Positions 285 to 64,000 of a stretch of 64,000 bases of DNA are shown in pieces. The stretch is taken from contig NC_060212.1 of assembly GCF_021130785.1 (NCBI RefSeq), forward strand, positions 150,998,501 to 151,062,500, written 5' to 3'. The stretch is from Homalodisca vitripennis (lineage: Eukaryota; Arthropoda; Insecta; Hemiptera; Cicadellidae). The notes beneath the pieces were generated by a model, which worked only from the letters and a program-made list of their open reading frames with translations, was not told where the DNA came from and ran no database searches. The translations under genes were made by a program, and so were the position numbers. The stretch's first letter is position 1; each line of letters opens with the position of its first letter.

Positions 285-32765
<32,481 letters not shown>

Positions 32766-45424: not shown

Positions 45425-45496
45425 ATGCAAAGTGTCATAAACACAGTCAAAGGAACAGCACTTGGGGTTGCAGAATATTTGACACCTGTGTTGAAG
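45425..45496 (+). CDS. ATG3: ATG3 exon 1
   Basis: 24 codons encoding the membrane-curvature-sensing amphipathic helix ([20 protein letters not shown]). Donor AAG|GTGAGA. Followed by a 7.9-kb intron full of transposons. Confidence 0.95.
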
Positions 45497-48400
45497 GTGA
45501 GAGGATGTTTTATTTAGTTATTTTTTAACAGATGTTCAAAATACTTATTCAGATCCTAGATGAAGTATGTTGGTTATCTTAATAGGCCTAAGTCAAGCTA
45601 AACTACAATATAAACCACATGAAGATGTATTTTTATTTTATAATAGTTTTATTTGATTGTTTTGCAATGGCCTAGCCAGTGTTGTAATCATGAAGAGCCG
45701 CAGTATAATAAGCGTCCAACATTCGAGTGATTGATTATATCGAATCATCAATTAAAACGATTTAAATTATATCAGACATGTTTGTTTACCTTGTTAAGTA
45801 ATTGTAACTGCCCAAACTTAGTATAAAGAAAGTTGTATTATTTTCTATAATCTAAAATGCATATATTTCTTTGACATATAAAACTATAGCTTTACTGTAA
45901 TACAATCTTAAAAGTCTATAACATAATTCAGTTCAACATTATTGATCCTAAGTAATTGAACAATGTTAAACCATGTGTGTGGTATTTTAGTAATGCCCGC
46001 TAGAGACGGGAAATACTGTTGTTTGTTAATACCTATTAAAAAATAACTTGTTGAGTTATTACATCCCAGGGACCTGTTACTGTGTTGCATGTTAGTATAC
46101 TAAAATTTAACTAAGCTACAACTATGTAACATAGAATGATTAACTAATAAATTGGGTAGGGTACCCGGACCCGGGATAAGCGGACCCGGTTTTTTATATC
46201 GAAATTGGCAACCGATATTACTTAATCATAACCATCAATATAATCAATCGATACTAATTAATCATTTTGAATAATCTATATCAACAGCTGTAAATACTTT
46301 CAAATAATACACGTAAGGTAATATTTCAATTTTACATAAGCAACATTTAATTATTAAAAATGACAGTCAATTTTAGAAAACTACACAACATTGCTTTGAA
46401 AGATGATAAGACATGTTTTCCGTGGCTTCAACATGGACTCGTACCGAAAAACCCATTATGTGAAATTTGTAGGAAAGAAACAAATGTAACTGTGAGAGGA
46501 GCTAATATTTGGTCTTTGGTTTTCCTAATTTTGGTTATAATAATTTGTTTGATCACTGTTAATATTAAATTCACATTTTAATTTAAAACATATGTTTGTT
46601 ATTGGGGATTATAGATACTTTTATATCGAATGATAGTCTAGGATTTGAGATGCGAATATTAGATATCGATGATTACATTTTTCGATATAAAAACCGGGTC
46701 CGCTTATCGTACCCTACCCTTAGAATGTCCTAAAAGTCTTCTCAAGATCATTTTTAGATAAGTATTTGTTCTTACTTTTCTTGCAGCGAAACATTCTTTG
46801 ATTTCCACTTTGAATTCTCGCTTTCATCTTGCCAATACAAACTGAACAATTTGGATTTAAAGGAGCAAGGCCATTATCTTGTAACTATTTAAAACATTGC
46901 TCAGTGTTCTTAAAAAGAATTTGTGCCAATATCTGCATATTCGTCGTCGTTGCTCTTGTCGTTGTCACTAGCCTTCTCCTACATAAATGAAATAACAGCT
47001 TTGATAATGACGTCACTAGTCTTAATAAAGAAAGCCGGCAATGAATAATTATCATGAATATCTGTAAGTAAAATGTCATATTCAATAGTATCGATATTTA
47101 AAATCAAAAGTTATAATCCGATTATGTTGGTGGCCGCTTATTATACTGTAGCCCTATCTCGAGGGATGTACTTCTTATTTCACCAGAAGTGCAGGGTGGA
47201 GCCAAATTGCCATCGAAGCTTGCACCAATGGCCATCAGTGCAGTCTTCTGTTATGCCATCCGCACGGCAGGTGCAAAAAGAAAAACATCCCCTCAGATAG
47301 TACCCAAATTCAAGCTCAGATCACTTAAGTGATTATATAGGTTGTGTTTAACTTTGATATTACTAGTAACATATTTATGATAATCTAATCTAAACTACTT
47401 ATATCGTATAATAACTTTGCATAGTGTAGTAATATTTCCATTGCTAATATATGCCTCATTGCTTGCACGAAATGGCCTAAACTGACACTGGTTAACGAGT
47501 AACACAAAACCAAAAAACTGTTATGAAACAAATTATTCAGCCCAGCTGTTACTGAAACAACAGTATCCTGGTAAAAGGTTACCACTGAAGTACCTGATAC
47601 TGACTCTTAACACTGCAGATCTGTAATGGCAACAAGTGCAGTGGTTATTATGCACATGTTTTATTTGTGTCAGACAAGTTTATCCTTCAAAATAGTATAA
47701 AGTAAGTAAATGTTATACTGTTTAGTTTGTTATTTATTTATAAATACACATATCCTAGATTGTTTTTATTCACTATAATGTTTTTATACTGTAATTTTAA
47801 ATATAACATAATTAAAATATAGTGTAATTTGGTTTAAGTAGTTTAAGCGAGGATTCTTTACTCATGAATATCATGATTTAATATTATTGATCACTCGAGT
47901 GTTGGACGCTTATTATACTGCAACCTTATGGTGACCACCAGGTGGGGAGTCAGTTATTTTGAGGTATCAGTGATATTACAAAGGCTGGAGTATAATAAGT
48001 GGCCACCACCACAATTGAGTTCTTCGATATTCATGATTATCTGTACTACTGAAACCAGAATGTCAAACTGGATTACGTTATAGGTATTTCAAATTAAAGT
48101 ATAGTTAAGCTATTTTTATATCTAAAACGTAATAATTTAATGATGAATAAAGAACTATCTATGTGTATTTATATAACGGAAAATACAAAACAGTGTAATG
48201 TTCATTTAGTTACTTTTTACTATTTTGAAATGGGTCTGGCAGGTTGTGACAAAAATAACACATGTACATCGCTATTGTACTTGTGACCATTACTCAAAAA
48301 TACAAAAGATTTTACTTTGTTTGAATGAATTTGGAATTTTATTGTTAGGCTATTCTATACATTAAAAAGAGTTGGTAATAATTAGTTGTAACTAACTAAA

Positions 48401-51400
48401 TGTTTTTGTATTCTATAGTTTAGGTATTTCTAATTGATAATTTTGCACCTGATTCGTTAGTGGTGGCATGAGGAAGCTGTCCGCACGTTTGGTGCCGCGT
48501 TTACTCACGTTAGACCAATAAACGTGTTGGAATGAATATTTCCAATGCTCTGTTGGCGTAGTTTAGCCACAATAAATTTGAGTTTTGCACTGATTAATTA
48601 CTGTAGATAAAACTTGGATACGCCATTATATGCCTGAAACAAAAATATAGTCCAAACAGTGGACTGCAAAGGGCAAACTGGCTCCAACAAAAAGCAAAAA
48701 CATTTTTTCAGCTAGGGAAGTGATGGCGACTGTTTTTTGGGATAGTCATGGAGTTATTTAAATTGATTATCTCCAAAAAAAAAAAATCATTACAGGAGCA
48801 TACTATGCATCATTACTTGACAAGCTGAAGGCAGAACTTGCAGAAAAACGGCCACATTTGCAGAAAAAGAAAATCCTGTTTCACCAAAACATTGCACTGT
48901 CTCACACCTCAGCGGTTGCCATGGAAATCCACAAATTATGGTTTGAACTGCTTAACCATCCACTTTACTCACCACCAGATATAGCCCCTAGCGACTTCTT
49001 TTTGTTCTCTCACTCTCATTTAAAAATTGCACTCACAAGACAGAGATTTTCGACAAATGAACGGGTAATTTGGAAACACAATCCAGTTGGAAGAAGACCT
49101 CGAGGTAGACCCAAAAATCGCTGGAAGGACCAGGTGGAGAAGGACTTGCGGAAATTGAGAGCGGGTCAGGTGGATTGTGAAGACAGGGAGAGATGGAGGC
49201 AGCTGGTTGGCGAGGCCAAATACCACCTAGGGTATCCATGGCCATGGGAGTAAGAGTAAGAGTAAGTAAGAACGGGTAATTACCTTCATGAACAATTATT
49301 TTGCAGAGAAAAACGCTGAGTACTATTTGGATGGTTTATAGAGATAGAAACATCGCTGGGAGAAGTGTGTAGAGTTACAAAGAGACTATGTTGAAAAATA
49401 ACACAAATATTTGAGAAAAAATGTTTTGTATTTTTGTTAGCTCGGAAATTTTTCAGACCACTCTTCCATTATAATATATTATAATACTGCACAAGCTGTT
49501 GCAGATGGAAGAGTTCAAGTCTAAACTTGTGGAACTCATATTAACTTGCAACATAAAAACTGATGTGTCTGTTGACATTTAACAAAGGGTTTTAAATTAC
49601 AAACATACTTGTATAATATACTTATATATCATTTTAATAAAGGTACATTTTCAACTCAAGTATTGCGTTAAATTTTTTTTTTTGTTTTAAAGGAGAAGCC
49701 GATCCCCTTTTAAGCCTTATTCTGCCCGTCCTCATGGGCCACTGGCCTGTGCGAGGATCTTATCAAACAGAATAAGGGGGAGAGTCGATACAGTACAAGG
49801 TCAATGGTACTGATAAAAAGTGCAAGGGTCACAGACAGGATTCGAACCTGCGCTATCTCTAACTCAGACTCAAAATCCGATGTCTTAGACCGCTCGGCCA
49901 TCGGCACTCCCAATTATATACTAAGTTATTATATTATATTATTATATTAAGTATATTATTTTAAAACTCAATATATTAATTTATAGATTTAAGCATCATT
50001 TAATTTTGTCAATTAAGTAAGATAACTTTAAGCCTATAGTTGATATTTTAGCATTGCACGAGTGTATTGAAAAGGTAATGTTTTTATCGAAATTCACAGC
50101 TCTGTGTCTCAAAACGTAGTTGAGTCTCAGTCATAATTTTTGGAGGGATATTCTTATTAGTATAAAGAACATTTTATAAAATATTCACTTGTTTTCATTC
50201 AGTCCAATTTTAGATATTAACCTATAAAAATTGGCATTACTGTGCTCTCATCTATTTTTGAAAAGCTGTAGAAAATAAGGAGTTCATTCTCAAGACTTAA
50301 ACTTATGCTGCTGGTAGTATTACGAGTGCTCAACACATAAATAAAATTTTACTTGTGAATCTCTTCTTCTTCCTAAAAGTTATAGTCATGAAAATTAAAT
50401 TTTAACATTTTTTCTGATTTTTTATAGAAAGGGTTTCACTGACTTTCTTGCATGATACAGAAATTAAAATAGTATCTTTTTGAAGGTTGTTTCATGCTAA
50501 ACTCATTGGTTTTAAAATTATTCTAATATCTTTAAAAGATACTGTGCAAATAAATTTTCCATAAACCCTGTTTTTCCATTGAATTTATTGAACCGTCATT
50601 TTAGCAATGGCTTCCAAATAAAAAGTGTGGCTTACAAATTTTTTTCAAATGGATTTTTGTGAATGTCTACCCGTAGGGATTCCATGATAAAAGAATCAGG
50701 AAAATTATTAATGTTTCGTAACAAATTATATTTATATTGGGTGATTTGTAATTGATTGACCCTGATAAGATTATGATCTGTGTGGCTTTTGTAATAATTA
50801 CAATTATTGTAAGGTCTTATTTTACTGGATCTATTCCAGTGGTCTGTCGTAAGAGCTGTAAATGAATACTGAGACATTAGAGTTGTGGTGAAAGACTATT
50901 TTAATTTTTCAAATTTAATTTAAGAAACATTGAGTAACAAATTATTTCTTTTACTGAAATTTAAAAATCTATACAATGTATCAGTGAAATTATTTTTTTC
51001 ACTGTATTTGCAGTCCATTGTAAGTTCTTAGCTTACTTAGCTTATTCTCCTTAAGAAAACTATATGTTATTTTAAATAGTGAAAATAGAAATAACACAAT
51101 ATTTTGTTGTTCTATTTGTATGCTGTCGATCTCATTATCTGTTTGTCAGTTTTATCTGTAGCCTTATCAGTAGCTTATCTAATGTTATATGTTTGGTGGT
51201 GCATCAACAAATGTCACAAATGTGCCTTGCAGATAACCATGATAACTACTGCAAATCAACTCAAATATAATCAACTGGTTTTGGGAGTTTCAAAAATTGT
51301 TTATGCGTCTTTGTAGTATAATCATTTTAAGACAGTCACGAAATGAAATTATTGATTAATAAAATTAAACATTATGTTTTAAGAGTGAAAATGTGTGTGT

Positions 51401-54400
51401 TTGTTGTAGTGTTTTATAAGTCAAGAAATTAAGGATTATTCTGTAATATTACTGTATCAACTTAAATTTTGTTACTATTGAAAATTATTCTGAAATTGAA
51501 TGTTATTAACCCTCCATCAGGCGCTTAAAATTAGAAACACCATCAGGCGCTCACGGATGTTTCCTCCAGGTTAGCGAATAATGGATATCATACTCGTTTA
51601 AAACTGTTTTTATTTGTTTAAATATTCATACTCATTTAATTACAATGTAATATATTCATTTTTAGAGATTAAATAAAAATTACTCTCTTATGTAATGAAT
51701 TTTCAATAAGAAACGAATATCATTCCTAGGGCATTTGTTAAAAACACCTGAAAATAGAATTAGCAGGAAAATAGTAGAAAAACTGTGGTATAGTAAAAGT
51801 GACATTAAATGGATCACAGAATTAAAAGAAGATATGAGAGAGTTACAAATTACAGTAGAGGATTTAAAACACAAGACAAACACATTGAAGATATTGAATG
51901 ACAAACACTCTACACTACAACTGAAAAGAAACAAACAACGAATAGGAAGAGTGGTTCCGGAGGAGGAAAGGAAATTACGCTCGGAAAGGATGAAGAAATA
52001 TTGGGTGGATAAAAGAAGAAAGACTAGAAAATATAAAGTGACTAAAGTGGTCCAATGTAGGCCATAAAATTATAAAAAAAATGAATTTTCAAAATAAGAA
52101 ATTCAAAATCTTAAAAAATGTTATTGTATAATAACAACATTATGTATGTTAAGGAATAATGCAATTAATTGTAAAAATGTTTAACCTACTGTAATAATAC
52201 GTGGAAATTAAGTTAGTTTTTAAATTCTTACAAAAACAATTTACTTCAATTCTTGAGATATTATACAATTGTAATGTCAATTATACTCTAAAATCAAAAT
52301 TTATTCTTTATTAAAAATTTTTTTAAACACTACACAAAGTTTCAAAACATTTTCTCTCTGGTTCTTATAACGACAATGTTCACTCCATAAACAGTACTGA
52401 AATGTTCCCTATCACACGGGTACTGTACTGACAAGTCTCTCGTCTTCATTCTCCATTTCACAAAATTGAAATAAAATATATTGTACAACTTAAAAAGAAA
52501 CCATCACAGGTCACATATTTAGGCGCACACGGATTATTACTCCATAAAAACTAAACACAATAAGGTGCTTACGGAGATTTCGTCCAAGCACTACAAACAC
52601 AACATCGGGCGCTCACGGAGGAATCGTCCAGTCACGCACAGAAGTAGACCTCATATTGACAGATTTTGACAAAGATAAGCGGGAAGCTATTGTTTCGCTT
52701 CCCCGAAAGATGCTCATGAAGTACACTGCGGGAAACGACTGCCAACATCAGAAAAGTAGTACTATTATTAATAATAAAAATACACAGAGGAAAACTCCGT
52801 TTAGCGCCCGATGTAGGGTTAATAACATTTTAGGTGATTATTATAGGTGTTAGAAAGGCAAAATGAACCAAAAGTAGTAATTAAAAAAAAATCAATTAAG
52901 CAAACAAAGTAATCTTTTGCCCTTATCTACTGTTTGTATTAAACAACATAAACCTAGGTATTTATCATAGGTCCTGGATAAGTGTAAATTTAACCTTTTT
53001 TTGTTTAGTTAAACATAAATTCAAATAATCTTTACATGGTCTGAACGTAATTTTAAATACTACCTCGAGATATAAATTAAGGATCCCTGACATAAAACCA
53101 ATAATTCTCATGATCTAACTAAGTATTAACTGAGTATAGAAAAGAATGACTACAATTCAATGAATGCCATACTGTTGAGTCATAACATTCAGAGATTTGA
53201 TCCACAAGGATAATCTCTATAACCTCCATAGACTGTGTCTGCAGCACACATCAGTTACGACATATATCAATATTAAAATACTTAACATTTAAATATTAAT
53301 AAACACACAATATTATTTGAAATAGCTGTATAATATAAGGGCAATGAATTGTAATTAATTATTGACTTATTAATTGCATGACAGGAATCAAAGTTCCGAG
53401 AGACTGGAGTGATTACACCGGAGGAGTTTGTTGCGGCAGGAGACCACCTGGTCCACCACTGTCCGACATGGCAGTGGGCAGGCGGAGATGAGGCTCGCAC
53501 TAAGTCCTATCTGCCACCCAACAAGCAGTTTCTGGTCACCCGCAATGTGCCGTGTCCTCGGCGATGCAAACAGGTATGTTGTGATACTTAATGTCTTTAT
53601 TGAAGACTAATTTAACCCTCCAACTAGCCATATAGTAATTCCTGAACTGGCAAGGCCATTTTGGTCGATTGGCAAGAGGTTTTCTAAACGGTTATAAAAT
53701 GTACATGCTTCATGCTAAGATACATTTATACATTAGACTTTGCATATTGAACTGGGAGAAGTATCAGCACTCACAGAAAAAAAACTATCTTGCAAAAACT
53801 AGTGGTTGCTGAGAAATTCTAGCTCAAGATCACATATATCAAGTTCCCTGCTTCTGTATTAAACTATTTTGGAAAAGAGCAGAATAGCCAAAAGATGCAG
53901 ATTTTATCATCTAATAAAAAAATGTGAAACACTGTGTAAAATAATATAAGATGTACATATTACATACTGACGTATTATACGTAGATACAAACACAAAAAA
54001 GTTGCAAATAAACCAAAAAAAACCTGGTTTTTGATAAGTCAATTATAAATATTGTTTTGTATTCAAACACAACAAATGTTATATTGTACTAATCCCAAAT
54101 TTATGTCATACTAGGTAAATGGATATTTGTTATAGCTAAAAAAATTGACCTTAAGTAATAAATATATACAAGTTTTGTAAAATTTTGTTTTATTCGTGAT
54201 AAGTACAAGGTTTTTGCTAATTCAATATTTTTTCAATATTGTAGAATATAAGCTTTTTATTGATATGCAGGGTGAACAAAAACACCTCTCTGTACCCTTT
54301 TGAACCCTCTGTAATCTGTAAGAGATATTTTTGGAGTTTGGGGGTTATTTTGGTAAATTTTTAAATTTAAAGGTGGGGTGTGTGGTACCTTATTTTAAAG

Positions 54401-57400
54401 GCATCTTGACACATAAAAAAAGTGTTCAATTTATCTTGCTGTAAATGTACAGCTTTAACAGGATTTTCTATTGTTACATTATTGAACAAATTATGAAACT
54501 CCAAAAGTAACCTAAAATAGTTGAGGACCTACCCTTCCAATGAAAGTTCAGTTCCCAAAATATTTCGACACTTAAAAATTATTTACATTTTTAAAATTAA
54601 AAAATATTCATAACAAATAAATATTAAATACAACCATATGGTTTGCATTGCACCAAATGAAAGGTACCGGTAGTAAAAAACAAAAAAATTATTGTACTTA
54701 AACTTTGGCTTTATCTCAAGCAGTTTCAGTTCTGTAGGCAAAAATAACAATTTCAAATGATTTAAAGCGTTTTATTATTACAATAGGTTGTAATAAGATA
54801 GTTGAACACACTTCTAATACTTTGAAAAGACCTTCATTTAAGCCCACCAACACCTTATAGATGCTCAAACTGTTTCCCATTGTTGCCAATGCAAAGCTCC
54901 ACTTGCACTGACTGTGTCTAATCTAGTAGAGAAATTAATGTTCACTATTAATACACTGCCAAGTATAGAATTAAGCACTTTTTTTGTTTTGCCCAGGGTT
55001 AGTTGTATTATATCCATAGACATGTTGTTTTACAGATGGAATACTGTAACGAACAGGAGATTTTATTAGAGACAGAAGATGCTGATGGGATGGGTCGACA
55101 CTCACAACATTGATCCTAATGCAGGGCTGAATGAGAAAATATTGGAAATGACTCGACAAGGATGTATTATATCCATAGATATGTTGTTTTACAGATGGAA
55201 TACTGTGACGAACAACAGGAGAGGTTGATAGAGATAGGAAATGTTCACAGGTCAAACCTCCTATATCTGCTGAAGATTTTAATAATTTTTTTTTGTAAAT
55301 GTCTCTAATGTTGTAAAATAGTAATAGTATGAATGTTAATTTAAATGCAGCTAGTGCCATTGATATTCTGAATTCCTCGGGTATAAATAATTCTACTATA
55401 GGCCTTACAGTATTTTAAGTGGTATGAGGTTAGTCCTGCTGATGTATACTATATTGTTAATAGGCTAAGTAACTCTAAGTCTGAATATGTCTATGGTTTG
55501 TCTAATTATGTTTTAAAGAATATTATTGTTGTGATTATGTGCCCCTTAACTTATCTTATAAACTGGATGCTCAATGTTGGTATTTATCCTCAATGTTTAA
55601 AATTAACTGTAACTGTACCTGTATATAAAAAAAGGTGATAAATCAAATGTCAACAATTACCGCCCTATTGCGCTTGTACCTGTAATATCTAATATAGCTG
55701 AAAGTATAATTAAATCTCAGATTGATTATTATTTTTGAAAAAAATCATCTACTTGTACCAGCGCAGTTTGGCTTCCGACAAGGTCTTTCTACGACTAAGG
55801 CAGTTGGAAGTGTTGTTTCTTATGTCATTAATGGGTTTGAGAATAAAGAGGAAGTCAGTGCTCTGCTTCTAGATCTAAGTAAAAGCTTTTGACACTGTGT
55901 CTCATAAAGTTTTAATTGAAAAGCTGGAATATTATGGAATAAGAGGTAATGAATTGTCTCTACTTATTTCTTATCTCTCTCTAGCAGATTCCAATATGTA
56001 AAATTGAATGACAGTCAATCTAGTTCTAAGCAGGTAACAAGCGGGGTTCCCCAGGGCTCTGTACTGGGTCCCTTCTTGTTTATGGTATTTATTAATGACC
56101 TTCCCAATTTCATACCGAATAAGTGTGTCTTGTGTGCAGACGGCACTACGTTGTTTGTGCTCTGACAGATCTCATGAAACTAGTGTAGTTATGACCAATT
56201 ATATGAAAGAAAGATCTTACCTTTGGTTCTCTGCAAATAGCCTATGTGTCAATGAAGACAAGTCTGAACATATTATTTTTAGCCTATGTACTGTTATCGC
56301 CAAACAAGTCAGTCAAGCTACTTGGTATTACCCTTGACTCTAAACTTTCGTGGGGAACTCATATAACCTCTCTATGTACTCGATTGTCCAGAGTTATTTT
56401 TCTCTTAAAAAAACTTAAACTATGTACTAGCTCTAGTTTAGTTATTAAGGCCCTACCATGCTCTTTTTCATACCCACCTTCAGTATGGTACCCTTCTCTG
56501 GGAGAATTCTAGTTATGCTGCTGATGTCTTTCTGTGCCAAAAGAAAGCTTTACGCATTATTTTTAATAAAAAAGCCTACTGATTCATGTAAGCCTGTCTT
56601 TGTAGAAAGTCGTATTCTTACACTTCCTTGTATCTTTGTTCTACAAAGCCTTATGTATGTAAAAGAGAATCTTGATGTATTTAATGTGAGAATTCATGAT
56701 TATAATACGAGAAATAGAGAATCTAATTGATTTTAAAACATGTTAGGCTAAGTAAAACCCAGCGTACATATCTTTTTACTGGCGTAAAGCTGTTCAATAA
56801 ATTACCATTGATTGTTAGAGACATTTCCTGTAAACATTTTAAAACAGTTAATGTTAAAATGGCTAAAAAAAGGCTTTTTTACTCTTCTGTTGACGAAATG
56901 TTACGTTGTAGTATGGACAATTTATGTTTTTAGACTTCTGACCTGTACTTTACCGTATGCAATCTAGTATGTAAGCATAAGCCCAGGAATTATGTGCTTT
57001 GTAGTCTGTAGGTTTATTGTATTTCTACAGACAAAGGTACACCTTTTACACTGTCAATACATTGTATATGTGGGATGACAATAAACATCTTGATTCTTGA
57101 TTCTAGACAGAAGATGCTGATGGCGGATGGGTCGACACTCACAGCATGGATCCTAATGCAGGGCTGGATGAGAAAGTATTGGAAATGACTCGACAAGGAT
57201 GTATTATATCCATAGATATGTTGTTTTACAGATGGAATACTGTGATGAACAGGAGAGGTTGATAGAGACAGAAGATGCTGATGGCGGATGGGTCGACACT
57301 CACAGCATGGATCCTAATGCAGGGCTGGATGAGAAAGTATTGGAAATGACCCTGGACGAGGATATCAATGTAAATAATTACATTATGTGTAATATATTAT

Positions 57401-60400
57401 TGCCAATTAAAAAAATATGTGAGATCTAGATTGTTACTAAATCCTGTTGGCTATGCATTAGTGAAGGATATCACTCAAGGGTTTTGAAAAATTTCATCTG
57501 TCTGTCCGCACAATATCTTGAGAATGAACTGACTTGACATTTTTTATGAAGCTTTATTTTCTTATTTAGACAACATATAATATAATTGTATTGTTTTCAA
57601 CTGAACTTTTTAAACAAAGTTTCCTTAAAATATTCAACTGAAATTAATTATTAATACTGATTTAAAAATAAAATTACGTTTTGAATATATTTTATGTTTT
57701 TAAAATTTAAAAAGCTGCATCAGTATTTTAATTATAGCAAAACAATTTTAGGCTTATATTATATTATAAAAGTCTTCATGTTATAAAAAAACAATAGTGT
57801 CAGTTTAAGGTGGTTGTATTAAAAATGTTTCATGTTTTATGCGTAAAAGTATTTTTTCCTGTGTTTTTAAGTGATTATTAAAGCCTGGTTTTTTGGTCAT
57901 GTGCGACAAACAATGTGTCAAACCTAACGCAACTAATACAGAGATAATAATTGTTAGAAGCAATGTTTGATGACTTGGAAAATTAAAATAGGGCAGATGC
58001 TATGAAGCTTTTTATGTTGTTTGGCCATGTTTATAGATAAAAGAATTCACGATATGAAGAAATTTATATTTAATTGCATTACTTCCCTTTTTAACCATTG
58101 CCTAATTTTCATTAATTTTTCAGCTAAATTTTCTTTCAATTTTAGTGTCAAAATGGCAAAGATTCTTTTACAGATAACTTTAGCCCGTCGTCAACAGATG
58201 TTAACATAAGAGTTTTGGTAGGATAGGAAGAGCAGGTATACATTTCATGCCCACTGGGTATTTTGTCAACTCCAAAGAGATTCGGTTTAAGGTGTCCAGT
58301 GCTGCCAAATTGCAGAAACAAAGTGTAAAATAGACTCAGTGAAAGCAATAATGGTTTGCATGTTTTATAGGATTCTCCAGTGAGGAAAGTGTGTGAAGTC
58401 CAGGACAATGATGACGAAGATGATGATGACGATGATGAAGCAGTTGACATGGAAGAGTTTGAGGAGAGTGGGATGCTGGACATGCAAGATGAGGTGAGGT
58501 CATGTCAAGGTTAAGGGTGGGACAGTTCGGTATATAATCTCTCATAATATACAGTAAAACTGTAATTATCGTAAGTAATAAGCGCTTAACATGTTTTGGA
58601 TAACCAAAATTTCTGATAATACGAGGTTATGTTAACACGAAGAACTTCCAGAAAATGTAGGCAGGTATATTAAAATTATAATATTATTGTATTATATGTA
58701 AGGAACAAGAACAGGAATGGAATGTTCTGGAATCTCATTTTATAATCTACCATTTGTATTATTTAAAAGGAGAAAGTAGAGCATATGACTTGTAGTTTAA
58801 AAAATATATTTGTCCAAATCTTTGTGAATCCCTCTGAAGCAGCATGGCATCTTAAGCTTGTTTTCTCCAAAGTGTCAAAGTTAAAGTAGAGTTCAGATTT
58901 GGTTAAAGTATTTGGTTTATTTGTTGGTTACACCGAACCAACCTTGTGTATCAGCAAAATCGATACTGAAACTTAGTGCACTGCAAACCTCTGACCTGCA
59001 ATGCTTGGACTGCAGTCTGCCCCACGGTATCGCTATGTGTTGGTAATTGTTCTCTTTATTTTTCCACACTGTATACATGTATTTTCCAAACATCACAGAA
59101 AGCAAGGTTATTAGGTATAATAATGTCATGTCGACACATTGAAAAACACAGAGATAAAAAACAAAGGAGCTTCAAATAGGTGGTAGCGATGAATCATCAT
59201 CGAATTTCTCGCCTATCGCTAGCAATGAAATTTTCTCTAGACCCCTACAGCTTTCCTCATGGCATTTCCTGGAAATACAGATGGTGACGATAAACCTTCA
59301 CCTTTCCATTTGGCGTAAGGGTTAAATACAGTATTACAGTTGTTTATTTTATTTGAGAATGAATTAGAAAATCGGAAACTTTCGACCGGGAAACTGGGGA
59401 AAAACCAGGAATTTGAAAAGAGGTTTTGAGTGGCCGCACTTTTAACCTTTTAGAAATAACAAAGTCAAAATGTCTCTGGTGACCCTTGATATTGAGTATT
59501 TCAATTTCTGATTCATTGAATTTTGTTTCAAAGGACAGATAAAATGGTAATATAAGTGTTTGTAACTCTTGCATGTTTATTTAATCTAGTAACATGGCTA
59601 AGGATCTAAACAAATCTAAGATTTAATTTCAAGTAATTGATTTTTATACATTGTTTTTACTTTGATGAACTATATGAAATACAGAAACCATTTCAATTGT
59701 TTTTATTTATAAACCCATAACAAGAAATAACTTTTCAGGCCACACTTGACGTTAAGAAAGATAAGGCAAAAAATGGTAGCTGTGAAGATGGTGAGATTGT
59801 TAGAACCAGGACATATGACCTTCACATAACCTATGACAAATTCTACCAGACTCCAAGGCTGTGGATTTTTGGGTATGATGAGGTAAGTCTGAAACTGAGT
59901 TTCTAGAATCTCCTAATATGTTTACAATAGCTGTGATATATCTGTATCATCAATGATTGGTTCATGTGTTAACAGTATCGCAGGCCACTGACAGTGGAGC
60001 AGATGTACGAGGATGTTAGCCAGGACTATGCAAAGAAGACAGTAACGATGGAATCACACCCTCATTTGCCTGGACCTCCTATGGCTTCGGTACACCCTTG
60101 CAGGTGAACTGCTATATCTTTGATTTTGAGAAATGTTGATAGGATACTAATGTAGTGGCTCAATAATATTTAAATATTGCGTACAGTAATACTTTTTAAC
60201 ATTGTAGCTTGGATATTGAGTGTATAACCCTTTGTACACTGAAACAGGAATGCTACAGGTCAGGGAAATCAGGGAAAAGTCAGGGGAAAAAAACAGGACT
60301 GGAAATCAGGGAAAAGTTAGGGAATCCGGTCTCAAGTCAGGGAAAAGTCAGGGAATTTCGACGTTCATCAGGGAAAAATAAAATCCCTTCTAAATATAAT

Positions 60401-63344
60401 GTACCTTCTTTAGCTCTGTAATTTCTATGTGCTACTAATTACTTATGGTGCAGTGTTCTAAAGTATTTTACTTCTGTGTTGTAAAAGATCATTAAGTCAA
60501 TCTTTTTGTATGTATTGAAACTGTGTTCACTTTATTTTTTGCTTTTTTATATTTGCCACCCTGTTAGCCTCAACATCGCTTTTTTCCACCCATTAATTGC
60601 CAAAAACCCTGGGGATTGCGTCGAAAAAAGTCAGGGAAAAATGAAAAATTTGGTCTGGAAATCAGGGAAAAGTCAGGGAATTTCATTATTGGACTCCTGT
60701 AGCAACCCTGTGAAAGCAAGTTGTATCAAATTGCTCTAATGCTAAAAAAAAAATAATAATTTTTAATTTTTTCGAAGTTATATATTTTTTTATGTTTATT
60801 GGTCTTGCAACTGATGAAAACATATGATAGTTTTTGTATTGCTTTTATTTTATTTACATATGAGTACATATACAGTTAAATATACACGGCAGTATATAAA
60901 GTACAATAAACGTTCCTGAAAGTAGCAAAAGTTATCACAACAGTAATATATATTATTTATACAAAATTAGTAGATAATGAAGGGAACAAATCCATGACAA
61001 ATATGGAATATATAAAGAACACAAAAAAAGGCACACTAGTATTGGACTTGTGTGTGGTAAATCTCAAAACACTCATCTGGATGGAGGGCAGGCTTGGCCT
61101 CACATGTTTTACATAGATATATAGTTTATCACATTATCGATATGAATAACCTCGCACAATAGGTAGCTAAAGCAGTATAGCAGGTTATAAACAATAAACA
61201 ATACACAGCGGCCGCCGGCAGCTGACTGTCATGCGCGAGTATTTCCGCTTAGAGCGTACAGCTTGCTCACTGGCGATGGTGCGGACTGACAAAGCAAACC
61301 AAAGTTTCCGTTGTGATTGGTCCCAGCTGTTTTGATGAGTCACGCTTCACATTGCGTCATATTAAAACACCAAATATTTACTCTCAAGCATTCTGGCGGC
61401 AATTTGTTGAACTAACATAAATATATATTGCGTTGTCAGGGGATTCCGCGATCTATTCCGCTTAGAACGTTTCGAGTTAGATTTACTCAGCGGAATATTC
61501 CGCTTACAGCGTACGAAGGGTTAGGTCAACATATGTTGGTTAGCCAAAAACACGCATACCTAGACAAAGCTCTTTTTTATAAGTCATAAGATTTAAATTG
61601 ATATGTGTGGCTCAATGCCCCATCTCAGATTGACTGTTCTACATTAACATCTTCACTGTTACACAAGTTATGTACCCAGGGTCGTTCGCAGTTTTGGCGG
61701 ACCCCAGAAAAGATATTTGGCTCGGCCCCGGCATGTCCTGCCACCCTCCTCTCAACAAGTGTGGCGGGACTGCACTGGGTCCCTTGAGGGTTCAGACCTG
61801 GTAAAATTGTCAGAAAAAACCGGTCTGAGTACAGGCCTGTATGTACCAACAATAGAACAGCCAGAATAGTAGTAAGTTGCTTGCACCTATGTGTTAAACT
61901 GCGATACATCTCTAGCTACAAAATACATTTTTAAAACCTTCACTGTGACTCAGGTCTTGTACCAACATTAGGACAGCTGTAGTAAATGGTGTGCACTGTA
62001 GTCAGTGTGTTAAACCTGTGATACGTCTCTATCTGAAAATTTAGAAACATTCACTTTGGAACCTTTGCCATTTAAATAGGAATGATGAATTGGATGACCA
62101 TATGATTGATAATCTTCTTCAAGTTTGTCCAGTCTGTCATCACCACTTTGTGTGTGACTGTTACAGATATGCTGAGGTGATGAAGATGATAATCGAGAAA
62201 GTGGGAGGGAGGAGGAGAGTTTGGTGTTCAAATGTACCTCATCATCTTCCTGAAGTTTGTCATGTGTCATCACCATTTTGTAACTGTTACAGACATGCTG
62301 AGGTGATGAAGAAGATAATCGAGACAGTACTGGAGGGAGGAGGAGAGTTGGGTGTCCACATGTACCTCATCATCTTCCTGAAGTTTGTCCATGTCTGTCA
62401 TCACCATTTTGTAACTGTTACATACATGCTGAGGTGATGAAGAAGATAATCGAGACAGTACTGGTGGGAGGAGGAGAGTTGGGTGTCCACATGTACCTCA
62501 TCATCTTCCTGAAGTTTGTCATGTGTCATCACTATTTTGTAACTGTTACAGACATGCTGAGGTGATGAAGAAGATAATCGAGACAGTACTGGAGGGAGGA
62601 GGAGAGTTGGGTGTCCACATGTACCTCATCATCTTCCTGAAGTTTGTCCAGTCTGTCATCACCATTTTGTAACTGTTACATACATGCTGAGGTGATGAAG
62701 AAGATAATCGAGACAGTACTGGAGGGAGGAGGAGAGTTGGGTGTCCACATGTACCTCATCATCTTCCTGAAGTTTGTCATGTGTCATCACCATTTTGTAA
62801 CTGTTACAGACATGCTGAGGTGATGAAGAAGATAATCGAGACAGTACTGGAGGGAGGAGGAGAGTTGGGTGTCCACATGTACCTCATCATCTTCCTGAAG
62901 TTTGTCATGTGTCATCACCATTTTGTAACTGTTACAGACATGCTGAGGTGATGAAGAAGATAATCGAGACAGTACTGGAGGGAGGAGGAGAGTTGGGTGT
63001 CCACATGTACCTCATCATCTTCCTGAAGTTTGTCATGTGTCATCACCATTTTGTAACTGTTACAGACATGCTGAGGTGATGAAGAAGATAATCGAGACAG
63101 TACTGGAGGGAGGAGGAGAGTTGGGTGTCCACATGTACCTCATCATCTTCCTGAAGTTTGTCATGTGTCATCACCATTTTGTAACTGTTACAGACATGCT
63201 GAGGTGATGAAGAAGATAATCGAGACAGTACTGGAGGGAGGAGGAGAGTTGGGTGTCCACATGTACCTCATCATCTTCCTCAAGTTTGTCCAGTCTGTCA
63301 TCCCTACAATCGACTATGATCACACCAAGAATTTCTCCATGTGA
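45425..63344 (+). CDS. ATG3: ATG3, E2-like ubiquitin-fold ligase for ATG8/LC3 lipidation
   Basis: Seven exons (45425-45496, 53385-53573, 57232-57369, 58371-58493, 59739-59882, 59976-60103, 63194-63344) join in phase to 945 bases: 314 residues plus TGA, the same length as mammalian ATG3. The product takes ATG8/LC3 from the E1-like ATG7 as a thioester and transfers it to phosphatidylethanolamine on growing autophagosome membranes. Visible marks: N-terminal amphipathic helix (residues 1-20), conserved [20 protein letters not shown] (about 33-52), an acidic flexible loop (about 145-160), [11 protein letters not shown] (in exon 5), and the catalytic Cys264 in the HPC motif. Start choice: the ATG gives the conserved N-terminal helix. 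Splice sites are all GT-AG. Odd features: exons 3 and 7 have extra partial copies just upstream. Confidence 0.97.
45697..48009. repeat. Four terminus-like copies of an AGTATAATAAG motif
   Basis: Copies at 45697-45717 and 47984-48009 read GCAGTATAATAAGCG-like on +; copies at 47131-47154 and 47903-47925 are inverted. The first and third share a longer flank (GTCCAACA, TCGAGTGAT), and the other two share GTGGCCACCA-type flanks. So two related families of inverted-repeat elements are mixed here. Which end pairs with which is not resolved beyond the 45697/47925 match. Confidence 0.6.
46154..46719 (+). mobile_element. 566-bp inverted-repeat element with a CxxC frame (Merlin-like?)
   Basis: The ends are inverted: GGGTAGGGTAC plus AAGCGGACCCGGTTTTT-type sequence at the left, complement at the right. 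The + frame at 46360 reads [20 protein letters not shown], then [20 protein letters not shown], before running into a hydrophobic tail that is probably non-coding read-through. The short W-x-x-x-x-GL ... CxxC pattern recalls the N terminus of ISXO2/Merlin-type transposases, but the match is weak. It could be any deleted DNA element. Confidence 0.5.
48477..49375 (+). pseudogene. mariner transposase relic, interrupted by a LINE tail
   Basis: The + strand reads [11 protein letters not shown], then [11 protein letters not shown] (place of the first Asp motif), [38 protein letters not shown] (second Asp lost: FHQN instead of FHQD) and [15 protein letters not shown] (third Asp). Stops and a missing N-terminal third make it dead. 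A 200-bp retroposed fragment splits it at 49071-49270. Confidence 0.8.
49071..49270 (+). mobile_element. Severely truncated LINE tail with 11-bp target duplication
   Basis: AACGGGTAATT occurs at 49060-49070 and again at 49271-49281. Between them are 200 bp encoding the last residues of a non-LTR element ([20 protein letters not shown] ... WRQLVGEAK) and a GTAAGA-type tail repeat. The RPRGRP...W...D form is the common C terminus of RTE-like LINEs. Heavy 5' truncation is normal for target-primed insertion. Confidence 0.85.
49376..49667. other. Intron remainder, no feature
   Basis: ATG3 intron 1 sequence between the mariner relic and the SINE. Nothing recognised. Confidence 0.5.
49668..49911 (-). 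mobile_element. tRNA-headed SINE with poly(A) tail
   Basis: On the minus strand a type II tRNA-like head (49828-49907) opens the element: GTGCCGATGGCCGAGCGGTC (A box), anticodon-type loop TTTTGAG, a long variable arm and GCAGGTTCGAATCCTG (B box). A 140-base unrelated body and an A-rich tail (T run at 49668-49690 on +) follow. The long variable arm points to a Leu/Ser tRNA ancestor, though the loop would read UUG; several acceptor pairs are broken. The head-body-tail order is that of a SINE. Confidence 0.7.
49912..51505. other. ATG3 intron 1, nothing recognised
   Basis: AT-rich intronic sequence; the small open frames in it look random. Confidence 0.5.
51510..52818. mobile_element. piggyBac-like TTAA element, 1.3 kb
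   Basis: TTAA at 51506-51509 and 52819-52822; inverted ends CCCTCCATCAGGCGCT and complement of CCCTACATCGGGCGCT. The motif GGCGCTCACGGA recurs inside both ends (about 51546 and 52609), with weaker versions near 52525 and 52565. It holds a short + frame unrelated to piggyBac (see 51735-52067). No transposase core is seen. Confidence 0.75.
51735..52067 (+). pseudogene. C-terminal fragment of a non-LTR element (RTE-like)
   Basis: A 110-residue frame reads [20 protein letters not shown], then [20 protein letters not shown]. This W-x-x-E-[IL]-K-E-D-[LM] block plus the basic SERMKKYW end matches the tail I know from insect RTE-like LINEs. It lies wholly inside the TTAA element, so it was carried or inserted there. 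It could also be an unrelated coiled-coil frame. Confidence 0.5.
53385..53573 (+). CDS. ATG3: ATG3 exon 2
   Basis: 63 codons between GCATGACAG and CAG|GTATGT. Encodes the conserved [20 protein letters not shown] block and a Cys-rich end ([10 protein letters not shown]), part of the E2-like fold. Confidence 0.97.
53574..54265. other. ATG3 intron 2, AT-rich, nothing recognised
   Basis: No exon or element recognised in this part of the intron. Confidence 0.5.
54270..54920 (-). mobile_element. Probable DNA transposon relic
   Basis: Starts with GCAGGGTGAACAAAAACACC, which resembles Tc1/IS630-type termini. Near 54845-54905 the minus strand reads [15 protein letters not shown], like the C-terminal GGHFEHL motif of insect DDE_3 transposases. 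The rest is unrecognisable and the borders are uncertain. Confidence 0.35.
55036..55194 (+). pseudogene. ATG3 exon 3, broken copy A
   Basis: A 159-bp unit: acceptor TTGTTTTACAG, then 117 bases matching exon 3 (55036-55152), then 42 bases of intron 3'-end sequence leading to the next copy. Relative to the true exon it lacks one base near 55090, so the frame reads DGMGRHSQH and stops. It also lacks the natural 3' end and donor of exon 3. Confidence 0.9.
55195..57231 (+). pseudogene. ATG3 exon 3, broken copy B, split by a LINE
   Basis: Second 159-bp unit. Its 5' part is at 55195-about 55241 (with a 3-base insertion), then comes a LINE (55242-57104), and its remainder resumes at 57105-57189 followed by the intron end (57190-57231) that serves as the acceptor of the intact exon. 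Copy B is closer to the intact exon than copy A. Confidence 0.9.
55242..57104 (+). pseudogene. 5'-truncated LINE inserted in exon-3 copy B
   Basis: The + strand reads [12 protein letters not shown], then [32 protein letters not shown] (motif A), [20 protein letters not shown] (motif B), CADGTTLF in place of YADDT (motif C), and a C-terminal [12 protein letters not shown]. At least five frame breaks. The end has AATAAA and a GATTCTT repeat tail. The sequence around both edges (AGATAGGAAATG at the left, AGACAGAAGATG at the right) looks like a diverged 12-14-bp target duplication. jockey/CR1/L2-type by motif form. Confidence 0.85.
57232..57369 (+). CDS. ATG3: ATG3 exon 3 (intact copy)
   Basis: 46 codons, [20 protein letters not shown] then [11 protein letters not shown] ... 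LDEDIN. Acceptor TTGTTTTACAG is shared with the broken copies; donor AAT|GTAAAT is unique to this copy. The phase is 0 on both sides. Confidence 0.95.
57370..58370. other. ATG3 intron 3, nothing recognised
   Basis: AT-rich; no repeat border or frame stands out. Confidence 0.5.
58371..58493 (+). CDS. ATG3: ATG3 exon 4
   Basis: 41 codons; acceptor GTTTTATAG, donor GAG|GTGAGG. Encodes the acidic flexible region (an eight-residue-plus Asp/Glu run followed by [11 protein letters not shown]), which in ATG3 proteins contacts ATG7 and ATG12. Confidence 0.95.
58494..59738. other. ATG3 intron 4
   Basis: Near 58552 CAGTAAAACTGTAATTATCG resembles a pogo/Tigger-type end without a visible partner. Otherwise nothing recognised. 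Confidence 0.4.
59739..59882 (+). CDS. ATG3: ATG3 exon 5
   Basis: 48 codons; acceptor CTTTTCAG, donor GAG|GTAAGT. Encodes [20 protein letters not shown] and FGYDE, part of the E2 core. Confidence 0.97.
59976..60103 (+). CDS. ATG3: ATG3 exon 6 (catalytic Cys)
   Basis: Acceptor GTTAACAG, donor CAG|GTGAAC. 42 codons plus two bases: [20 protein letters not shown] ... SVHPC. The catalytic Cys264 is the last whole codon, so everything after it depends on which downstream acceptor is used. Confidence 0.97.
60253..60685. repeat. Two clusters of TCAGGGAAAAGTCAGGGAA repeats
   Basis: At 60253-60375 and 60628-60685, variants of TCAGGGAAAAGTCAGGGAA and TGGAAATCAGGGAAAAGT recur in the same orientation. 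The pattern looks like the terminal repeats of a DNA element, but the type is not recognised and no inverted partner is seen. It lies in ATG3 intron 6. Confidence 0.6.
60690..62106. other. ATG3 intron 6, middle part
   Basis: TTCCGCTTAGAGCGTAC (about 61246) and TTCCGCTTAGAACG / TTCCGCTTACAGCGTAC (61455-61515) are related short repeats. The last leads into GAAGGGTTAGG, close to a piggyBac-type AAGGGTTAA end, possibly a decayed TTAA element. No exon recognised. Confidence 0.4.
62167..63193 (+). repeat. Tandem array: eight partial copies of ATG3's last exon with its acceptor
   Basis: Exon-like starts lie at 62167, 62293, 62424, 62552, 62682, 62810, 62938 and 63066, before the intact exon at 63194. 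Spacings are 126, 131, 128, 130, 128, 128, 128 and 128. A fragment of a further unit end precedes the first (62107-62166). Each unit is about 110 bases of exon (up to GTCATC of the LKFVQSVI region) fused to about 20 bases of intron end (ACCATTTTGTAACTGTTACAG). Six of the eight keep the AG acceptor; units at 62424 and 62682 have TTACAT instead. None contains the natural C-terminal codons or stop. The first unit is the most diverged. Confidence 0.97.
63194..63344 (+). CDS. ATG3: ATG3 exon 7 (intact last exon)
   Basis: Acceptor ACTGTTACAG; completes the split Arg and encodes [36 protein letters not shown] and the terminal [13 protein letters not shown] before TGA. It is the only copy in the array with the conserved C terminus. 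Confidence 0.95.
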
Positions 63345-64000
63345 TCTGTTTACATAATGGTTTACCATTTTTATATGAGTTGTGGTGTGTGCATTCCATT
63401 AGTATTGTAAGAATTAAATTAATGCTAATACTCGTCACGTTTTCATGCTTTATTGTTATCTCAAAGCATCAGTTGAGCAAACCAGATCTGTCCAAGTTCA
63501 CACACAACACAGGTGGTCACTAGCCACTTTAATTTCTTGGTTATTTATTTTAGTAATGGCTTTTGAAATATATTTTACATTTAGCTTTTTAAAGAATTTA
63601 TTAGTCTTGAATATTAATTTTTATGTTGATATGATATGTTTATACTGAATTGCCTTAAAGAATATAAGGTTTGAATAGATATATACAAAGAAACTAAGAA
63701 ATGCTAAATATAAAATAATATAATAAACATTTTAAAGGGTACTAAAATTGTAATATCAAATAAAATATGTTGTTTTTATGAATAATTTTAGAGTTCCATA
63801 TTATAGATTATCCATACGTATAATCTACCATGTATTTTGTAGTTTTAAAAGATGTAATAATCATGATATCTCAATAATTTAAAAAGTGGTATTATATACT
63901 TTTTGTTAATGCCATAGATAAGAAATGGTAATAAGGCATGAATATGAGGTAGAGTCAAAAAGTTGTGTAAGTCAGTTTAAATGTATTTATTGAACAAAAG
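63345..64000 (+). terminator. ATG3 3' UTR with candidate poly(A) signals
   Basis: AATAAA hexamers at 63722-63727 and 63759-63764 are the best candidates for the polyadenylation signal, 380-420 bases after the stop. No downstream element can be judged. Nothing else is recognised to the window end. Confidence 0.4.

Follow-up and report, generated by a model that had tools for sequence, protein, structure and literature searches.

Which splice acceptor is used when the last exon of a gene is preceded by several partial copies of itself, and how does such an arrangement come about? These questions are raised by the autophagy gene ATG3 of the leafhopper Homalodisca vitripennis, which lies in a stretch of 64,000 nucleotides (nt; here called the window) placed by genome search at C6:150998501-151062500 in an assembly of 2,304,811,887 bases and 14,901 contigs. 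In silico splicing of seven coding exons on the forward strand (45425-45496, 53385-53573, 57232-57369, 58371-58493, 59739-59882, 59976-60103, and 63194-63344) turned the ATG3 coding region (45425-63344) into a single open frame of 314 amino acids (aa), with the stop codon in the true last exon, exon 7. We found that the end of intron 6, the acceptor, and the beginning of exon 7 are repeated in tandem as nine units. It is likely that this array is a mirage minisatellite, that is, a duplicated intron-exon boundary, which grew through tandem duplication together with unequal exchange, and that splicing uses mainly the last unit and still yields normal ATG3.

The initial annotation had described a ninefold array of the last ATG3 exon at a spacing of 126 to 131 bp, and this description was confirmed by two measures. 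Tandem Repeats Finder (TRF) reported a tandem array at 62112-63290 (period, 128; 9.1 copies; 96% matches; score, 2126), and the anchor GCTGAGGTGATGA was found at nine places in the window, namely 62171, 62297, 62428, 62556, 62686, 62814, 62942, 63070, and 63198, with spacings of 126, 131, 128, 130, 128, 128, 128, and 128. The nine units, ranging from 128 to 132 bp in length, span 62121-63281, and each takes in the end of intron 6, the acceptor position, and the beginning of exon 7. The left edge (62109-62252) consists of a 33-bp remnant of the exon part (62109-62141), which has no acceptor and is 94% alike, and of unit 1 (62121-62252), the most diverged unit, with 16 to 20 differences from the other units and an AG before 62167. 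Decoy acceptors are carried by unit 2 (62253-62380; AG before 62293), unit 4 (62512-62639; AG before 62552), and units 6, 7, and 8 (62770-63153; AG before 62810, 62938, and 63066), the last three being identical to one another and to unit 2. Units 3 (62381-62511) and 5 (62640-62769) have lost the acceptor, reading AT before 62424 and 62682, respectively, and have a longer junction. Unit 9 (63154-63281) covers the last part of intron 6, the true acceptor, and 88 nt from the start of the true exon 7, and it differs from units 2, 6, 7, and 8 at one position in 128. The number of upstream acceptors, previously put at six or more, is thus exactly six of eight by the presence of AG, with AT at the other two.

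Over a span of 60 nt upstream and 87 nt downstream, the decoys of units 2, 6, 7, and 8 agree with the true acceptor at each of the 147 positions, so that no score based on local sequence can single out the true site; a fifth decoy, in unit 4, has one difference over the same 147 bases. A genome search with a 276-bp piece of the array returned nine matches, all at the ATG3 locus, and a profile of the unit run against window positions 1-62080 for older, decayed units gave a best E value of only 1.5. In the intron just ahead of the array (61842-62080), inspection by eye suggested a diverged repeat, roughly 116 bp long and without relation to the exon, which self-comparison did not list.

The assignment of the gene to ATG3 is well founded. 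The predicted protein matches the Pfam domain Autophagy_act_C (PF03987; E value, 2e-67), contains the HPC catalytic motif in a full-length frame, and is matched by solved protein chains named ATG3. Among the proteins listed, its closest relative is ATG3 from a sharpshooter, Graphocephala atropunctata (96% along the entire length), followed by a protein of Macrosteles quadrilineatus (85%), both species being leafhoppers. The placing of the exon 6 donor after 60103, of the acceptor before 63194, and of Cys264 as the last whole codon ahead of intron 6 proved correct. The statement that ATG3 is a single-copy gene was also borne out within the scope of a PF03987 search of the genome, which found ATG3 and only one further place, C8:66769104-66769607. 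The latter has one open frame of 209 aa across the matched part and is an ATG10-like gene. A retrocopy of ATG3, considered as a record of splicing, was rejected, given that this sole other place is ATG10-like, with 26% identity over 116 columns.

Minisatellite duplications of intron-exon boundaries have been named mirages in amphioxus (PMC3087553). According to that report, mirages occur in the globin genes BflGb6 and BflGb9 and in Adh3, carry splice signals in many but not all units, and differ in length between haplotypes or tissues; regular splicing was reported on the basis of reverse transcription-PCR, and mirages were considered perhaps a general phenomenon in cephalochordates (PMC3087553). 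A second report, which cites Adh and TnC, describes lancelet PGBD5 as having repeats of 60 and 108 bp over splice sites (PMC3902484). For the globin, Adh, and TnC mirages of amphioxus, splicing is reported to be undisturbed (PMC3087553, PMC3902484).

The ATG3 array has the traits of this class. Its minisatellite-like units each start in intron 6, cross the acceptor position, and end in exon 7, and a splice signal is present in many but not all of them (AG in seven of nine and AT in two). The inner units 2, 6, 7, and 8 are homogenized, whereas unit 1 has diverged, and unit 9 is nearly identical to the inner units, so that the left edge alone is worn. Both types of boundary are duplicated in the genome, the acceptor type at ATG3 exons 3 and 7 and the donor type in a random stretch (L014) described below, as both are in amphioxus (PMC3087553). 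The described BflGb6 mirages share with the array a similar unit size (150 to 160 bp there), the boundary-spanning position, the splice signals, the homogenized interior, and the worn edge; the unit number is nine in ATG3 versus six and three in two BflGb6 haplotypes. Unlike the amphioxus mirages, as far as these were described, the ATG3 array is found in an insect and at the boundary of a last exon, and two arrays are present in one gene. The lancelet PGBD5 and TnC repeats are likewise short tandem units with 5' or 3' splice sites and were judged harmless to splicing (PMC3902484), but they concern different genes in a different phylum, and the PGBD5 copies are few and imperfect. No insect case of such arrays was recognized in the open-licence literature, as covered by titles and the beginnings of abstracts, and the available part of the H. 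vitripennis genome paper makes no mention of them (PMC8496328). By its sequence, the ATG3 array is a mirage in an insect, a further case of the kind known from amphioxus.

Two other known systems were compared with the array. Intron gain by tandem genomic duplication is a general model in which sequence that used to be exonic acquires a new intron, spliced out between the duplicated AG/GT sites. The duplicated unit of ATG3 contains AG/GT as this model supposes, but the ATG3 copies sit in an existing intron. Mutually exclusive splicing of duplicated tandem exons resembles the present case in that the exon copies adjoin in one gene, and in that system every copy is a whole exon that can substitute for another; the ATG3 decoys, however, lack the 3' part of the exon and end in other tails. 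Without this part and the normal ending, they cannot replace the exon.

Besides exon 7, exon 3 of ATG3 is tripled together with its acceptor (55004-57369), a duplication that went unmentioned in the initial annotation, with two upstream copies that are 85 to 96% alike in pieces. The interval 55004-55243 contains copy 1, whose acceptor precedes 55036, and the beginning of copy 2, whose acceptor precedes 55195. It is followed by a retroelement-like insert with approximate borders (55244-57105), in which reverse-transcriptase-like pieces were seen by eye; the remainder of copy 2 lies, together with the true exon 3 (57232-57369), at 57106-57369. Since the insert sits within copy 2, the exon 3 array predates it. 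A possible worn target-site duplication was noticed by eye, with AGATAGGAAATG ahead of the insert and AGACAGAAGATG behind it.

Arrays of this size are also frequent outside the gene. In a random sample of 20 stretches of 10 kb from C6, arrays with a period of at least 60 were found in 10 stretches (L012, L014, L015, L018, L019, L020, L021, L024, L027, and L028), amounting to 12 arrays once overlapping rows were merged; sequence likeness among them was seen only between the two arrays of L015. One of these stretches, L014 (C6:18851672-18861671), contains at positions 6587-7932 a tyrosine-kinase-like exon of 130 bp repeated 10.3 times head to tail. In this array the end of the exon joins its start, with GTAACG at the junctions and GCAACG at the true exon start. 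Two units match PF07714 positions 96-125 and 96-126 (E values, 2e-5 and 2.2e-6, respectively), and the flanking exons match positions 45-95 and 123-201. L014 is the mirror image of the ATG3 array, with the donor repeated instead of the acceptor. In the translations of the other random-stretch arrays, viewed by eye only, no further clear protein was recognized. Because a second array is present at exon 3, a kinase exon is repeated in a similar way, and arrays occur in 10 of 20 random stretches, no explanation specific to ATG3 is needed; where arrays with periods of about 60 to 290 bp are as common as in this sample, a few can be expected to begin at the border of an exon.

From two units on, unequal exchange or conversion would add units and equalize them, and such a process would leave the inner units identical and the left edge worn. 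The true acceptor and the true exon start themselves lie within the equalized tract. With regard to acceptor choice, terminal-exon definition would favor the last acceptor, which is nearest to the candidate poly(A) signal, ATTAAA (63413-63418); this signal is situated 219 nt past the true acceptor and 347 to 1246 nt past the AG decoys. The decoys of exon 3 do not have the donor that belongs to this exon, and exon definition would not be expected to succeed on them.

Several observations weigh against a mirage that is spliced mostly to its last unit. The true acceptor is locally indistinguishable from four decoys, and the decoys are met first during transcription, which could favor them. No selecting RNA structure was found in four folded pieces (z scores, -1.33, 0.28, -0.53, and -0.30). 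Within the stretches of three chaperonin genes, which were located by PF00118 as a control and whose exons were compared directly, further copies were found for 0 of 19 exon parts, so that exon arrays are not present in every gene, and these stretches hold only one array with a period of at least 60 (L036, 2949-3084; 1.9 copies). Copies were found for two of the seven ATG3 exons and one of the three exons tested in L014, fractions that are not rates because both genes were picked for having arrays.

Two approaches were considered and rejected. A perfect inverted repeat of 8 bp, TCATCACC/GGTGATGA, has its arms on either side of the acceptor, but RNA structure was not retained as the acceptor selector at fold z scores of -1.33 to 0.28. 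A Pfam search of the genome was unsuitable as a census of exon arrays, given that PF03987 picks up exon 7 only in its last copy and that the L014 array is missing from those of the 153 PF07714 matches that were listed. Since Pfam lists miss arrays, no rate can be drawn from the fact that the 66 matches listed for PF00118 show no repeats, and the 19 exons were compared directly instead. In the PF00118 matches, contig C2213 and C7:26992330-27016228 have the same series of exon matches and look like two haplotypes of one chaperonin gene. Elsewhere in the window, at 12325-12991, a 130-bp unit is present in 5.1 copies that are 99% alike; on the minus strand, it resembles by eye the C-terminal portion of a reverse transcriptase from a retroelement.

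Use of the decoys, by which normal ATG3 would be mixed with forms of exchanged tail and the copy number of the array would tune the mixture, is rather unlikely, although six upstream acceptors have AG and four are identical to the true site. Splicing in silico to 62293, 62552, 62810, 62938, and 63066 gave open frames of 304 to 312 aa (312 aa for 62293, 304 aa for 62552, and one identical form of 311 aa for the other three), with the stop falling in the last exon, and 62167 gave a garbled product of 354 aa. In the five decoy forms HAEV...FLKFV is retained and the last 17 residues are replaced; the retained FLKF holds the residues equivalent to Lys-295 and Phe-296 of human ATG3. According to a study of the human protein, activity is nearly lost when Lys-295 is changed to Glu or Phe-296 to Glu, Ser, or Ala and is kept when either is changed to Leu, and the C-terminal regions contact the membrane, with residues 306 to 314 unstructured (PMC10485044). 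The 311-aa decoy form would probably work less well than normal ATG3. The tail that would be exchanged is conserved, since the motif PT[IV][DE]YD is present in at least 116 of 120 relatives (the best 120 of 2805); the remaining 4 comprise three without a literal FLKF, which were unscored, and one with a different ending. None of the best 120 of 358 proteins covers the decoy tail (query, last 40 residues of the 311-aa form; coverage, at most 75%), which is weak evidence because the database was clustered at 90% identity and a cluster may hide such a protein. Furthermore, the amphioxus precedents were reported as silent, and the inner units are too similar to reveal selection for any frame. The earlier proposal that upstream acceptors compete with the true one stands in part: the gene is ATG3, it is single copy by PF03987, and several upstream acceptors are intact, four of them identical over 147 bases, while several C-terminal forms, or a dedicated mechanism for skipping the decoys, are conceivable.

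An assembly artefact in the copy number would fit the identity of units 2, 6, 7, and 8, as well as an assembly of 14,901 contigs with at least one pair resembling two haplotypes (C2213 and C7). Nevertheless, it is very unlikely, in that units 1, 3, 4, 5, and 9 carry distinct variants and the edge is worn, neither of which is expected from simple false duplication, and ATG3 has a second array, at exon 3, which is older and contains an insert. The array might also be the start of new exons or introns, with the AG|GT that every unit has ten bases past its acceptor position (CTGAG|GTGATG) acting as a donor to make small exons from parts of units. The anchor containing AGGT is found in nine of nine units, and intron gain from mirages has been proposed (PMC3087553). 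However, the units sit in an existing intron and an exon of ten bases would shift the frame, and we regard this start of new exons or introns as highly improbable.

The array gains in interest from not being alone in the genome and from offering, by its identical acceptors, a clean splicing experiment. With four decoys that equal the true site across 147 bases, the gene offers a natural experiment on the choice that the spliceosome makes when several identical acceptors precede a poly(A) site, and the array would also test whether mirages seed new exons or introns. Mirages that occur twice in one insect gene and once in a random stretch suggest that a genome rich in tandem arrays generates them repeatedly. 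If it is true that the decoys are used, a minisatellite would alter the end of a core autophagy enzyme. It is improbable that mirages are present in many genes of leafhoppers of this kind and that the ATG3 decoys are spliced, the copy number setting the ratio of tail forms, in which case a rapidly changing minisatellite would tune autophagy between individuals.

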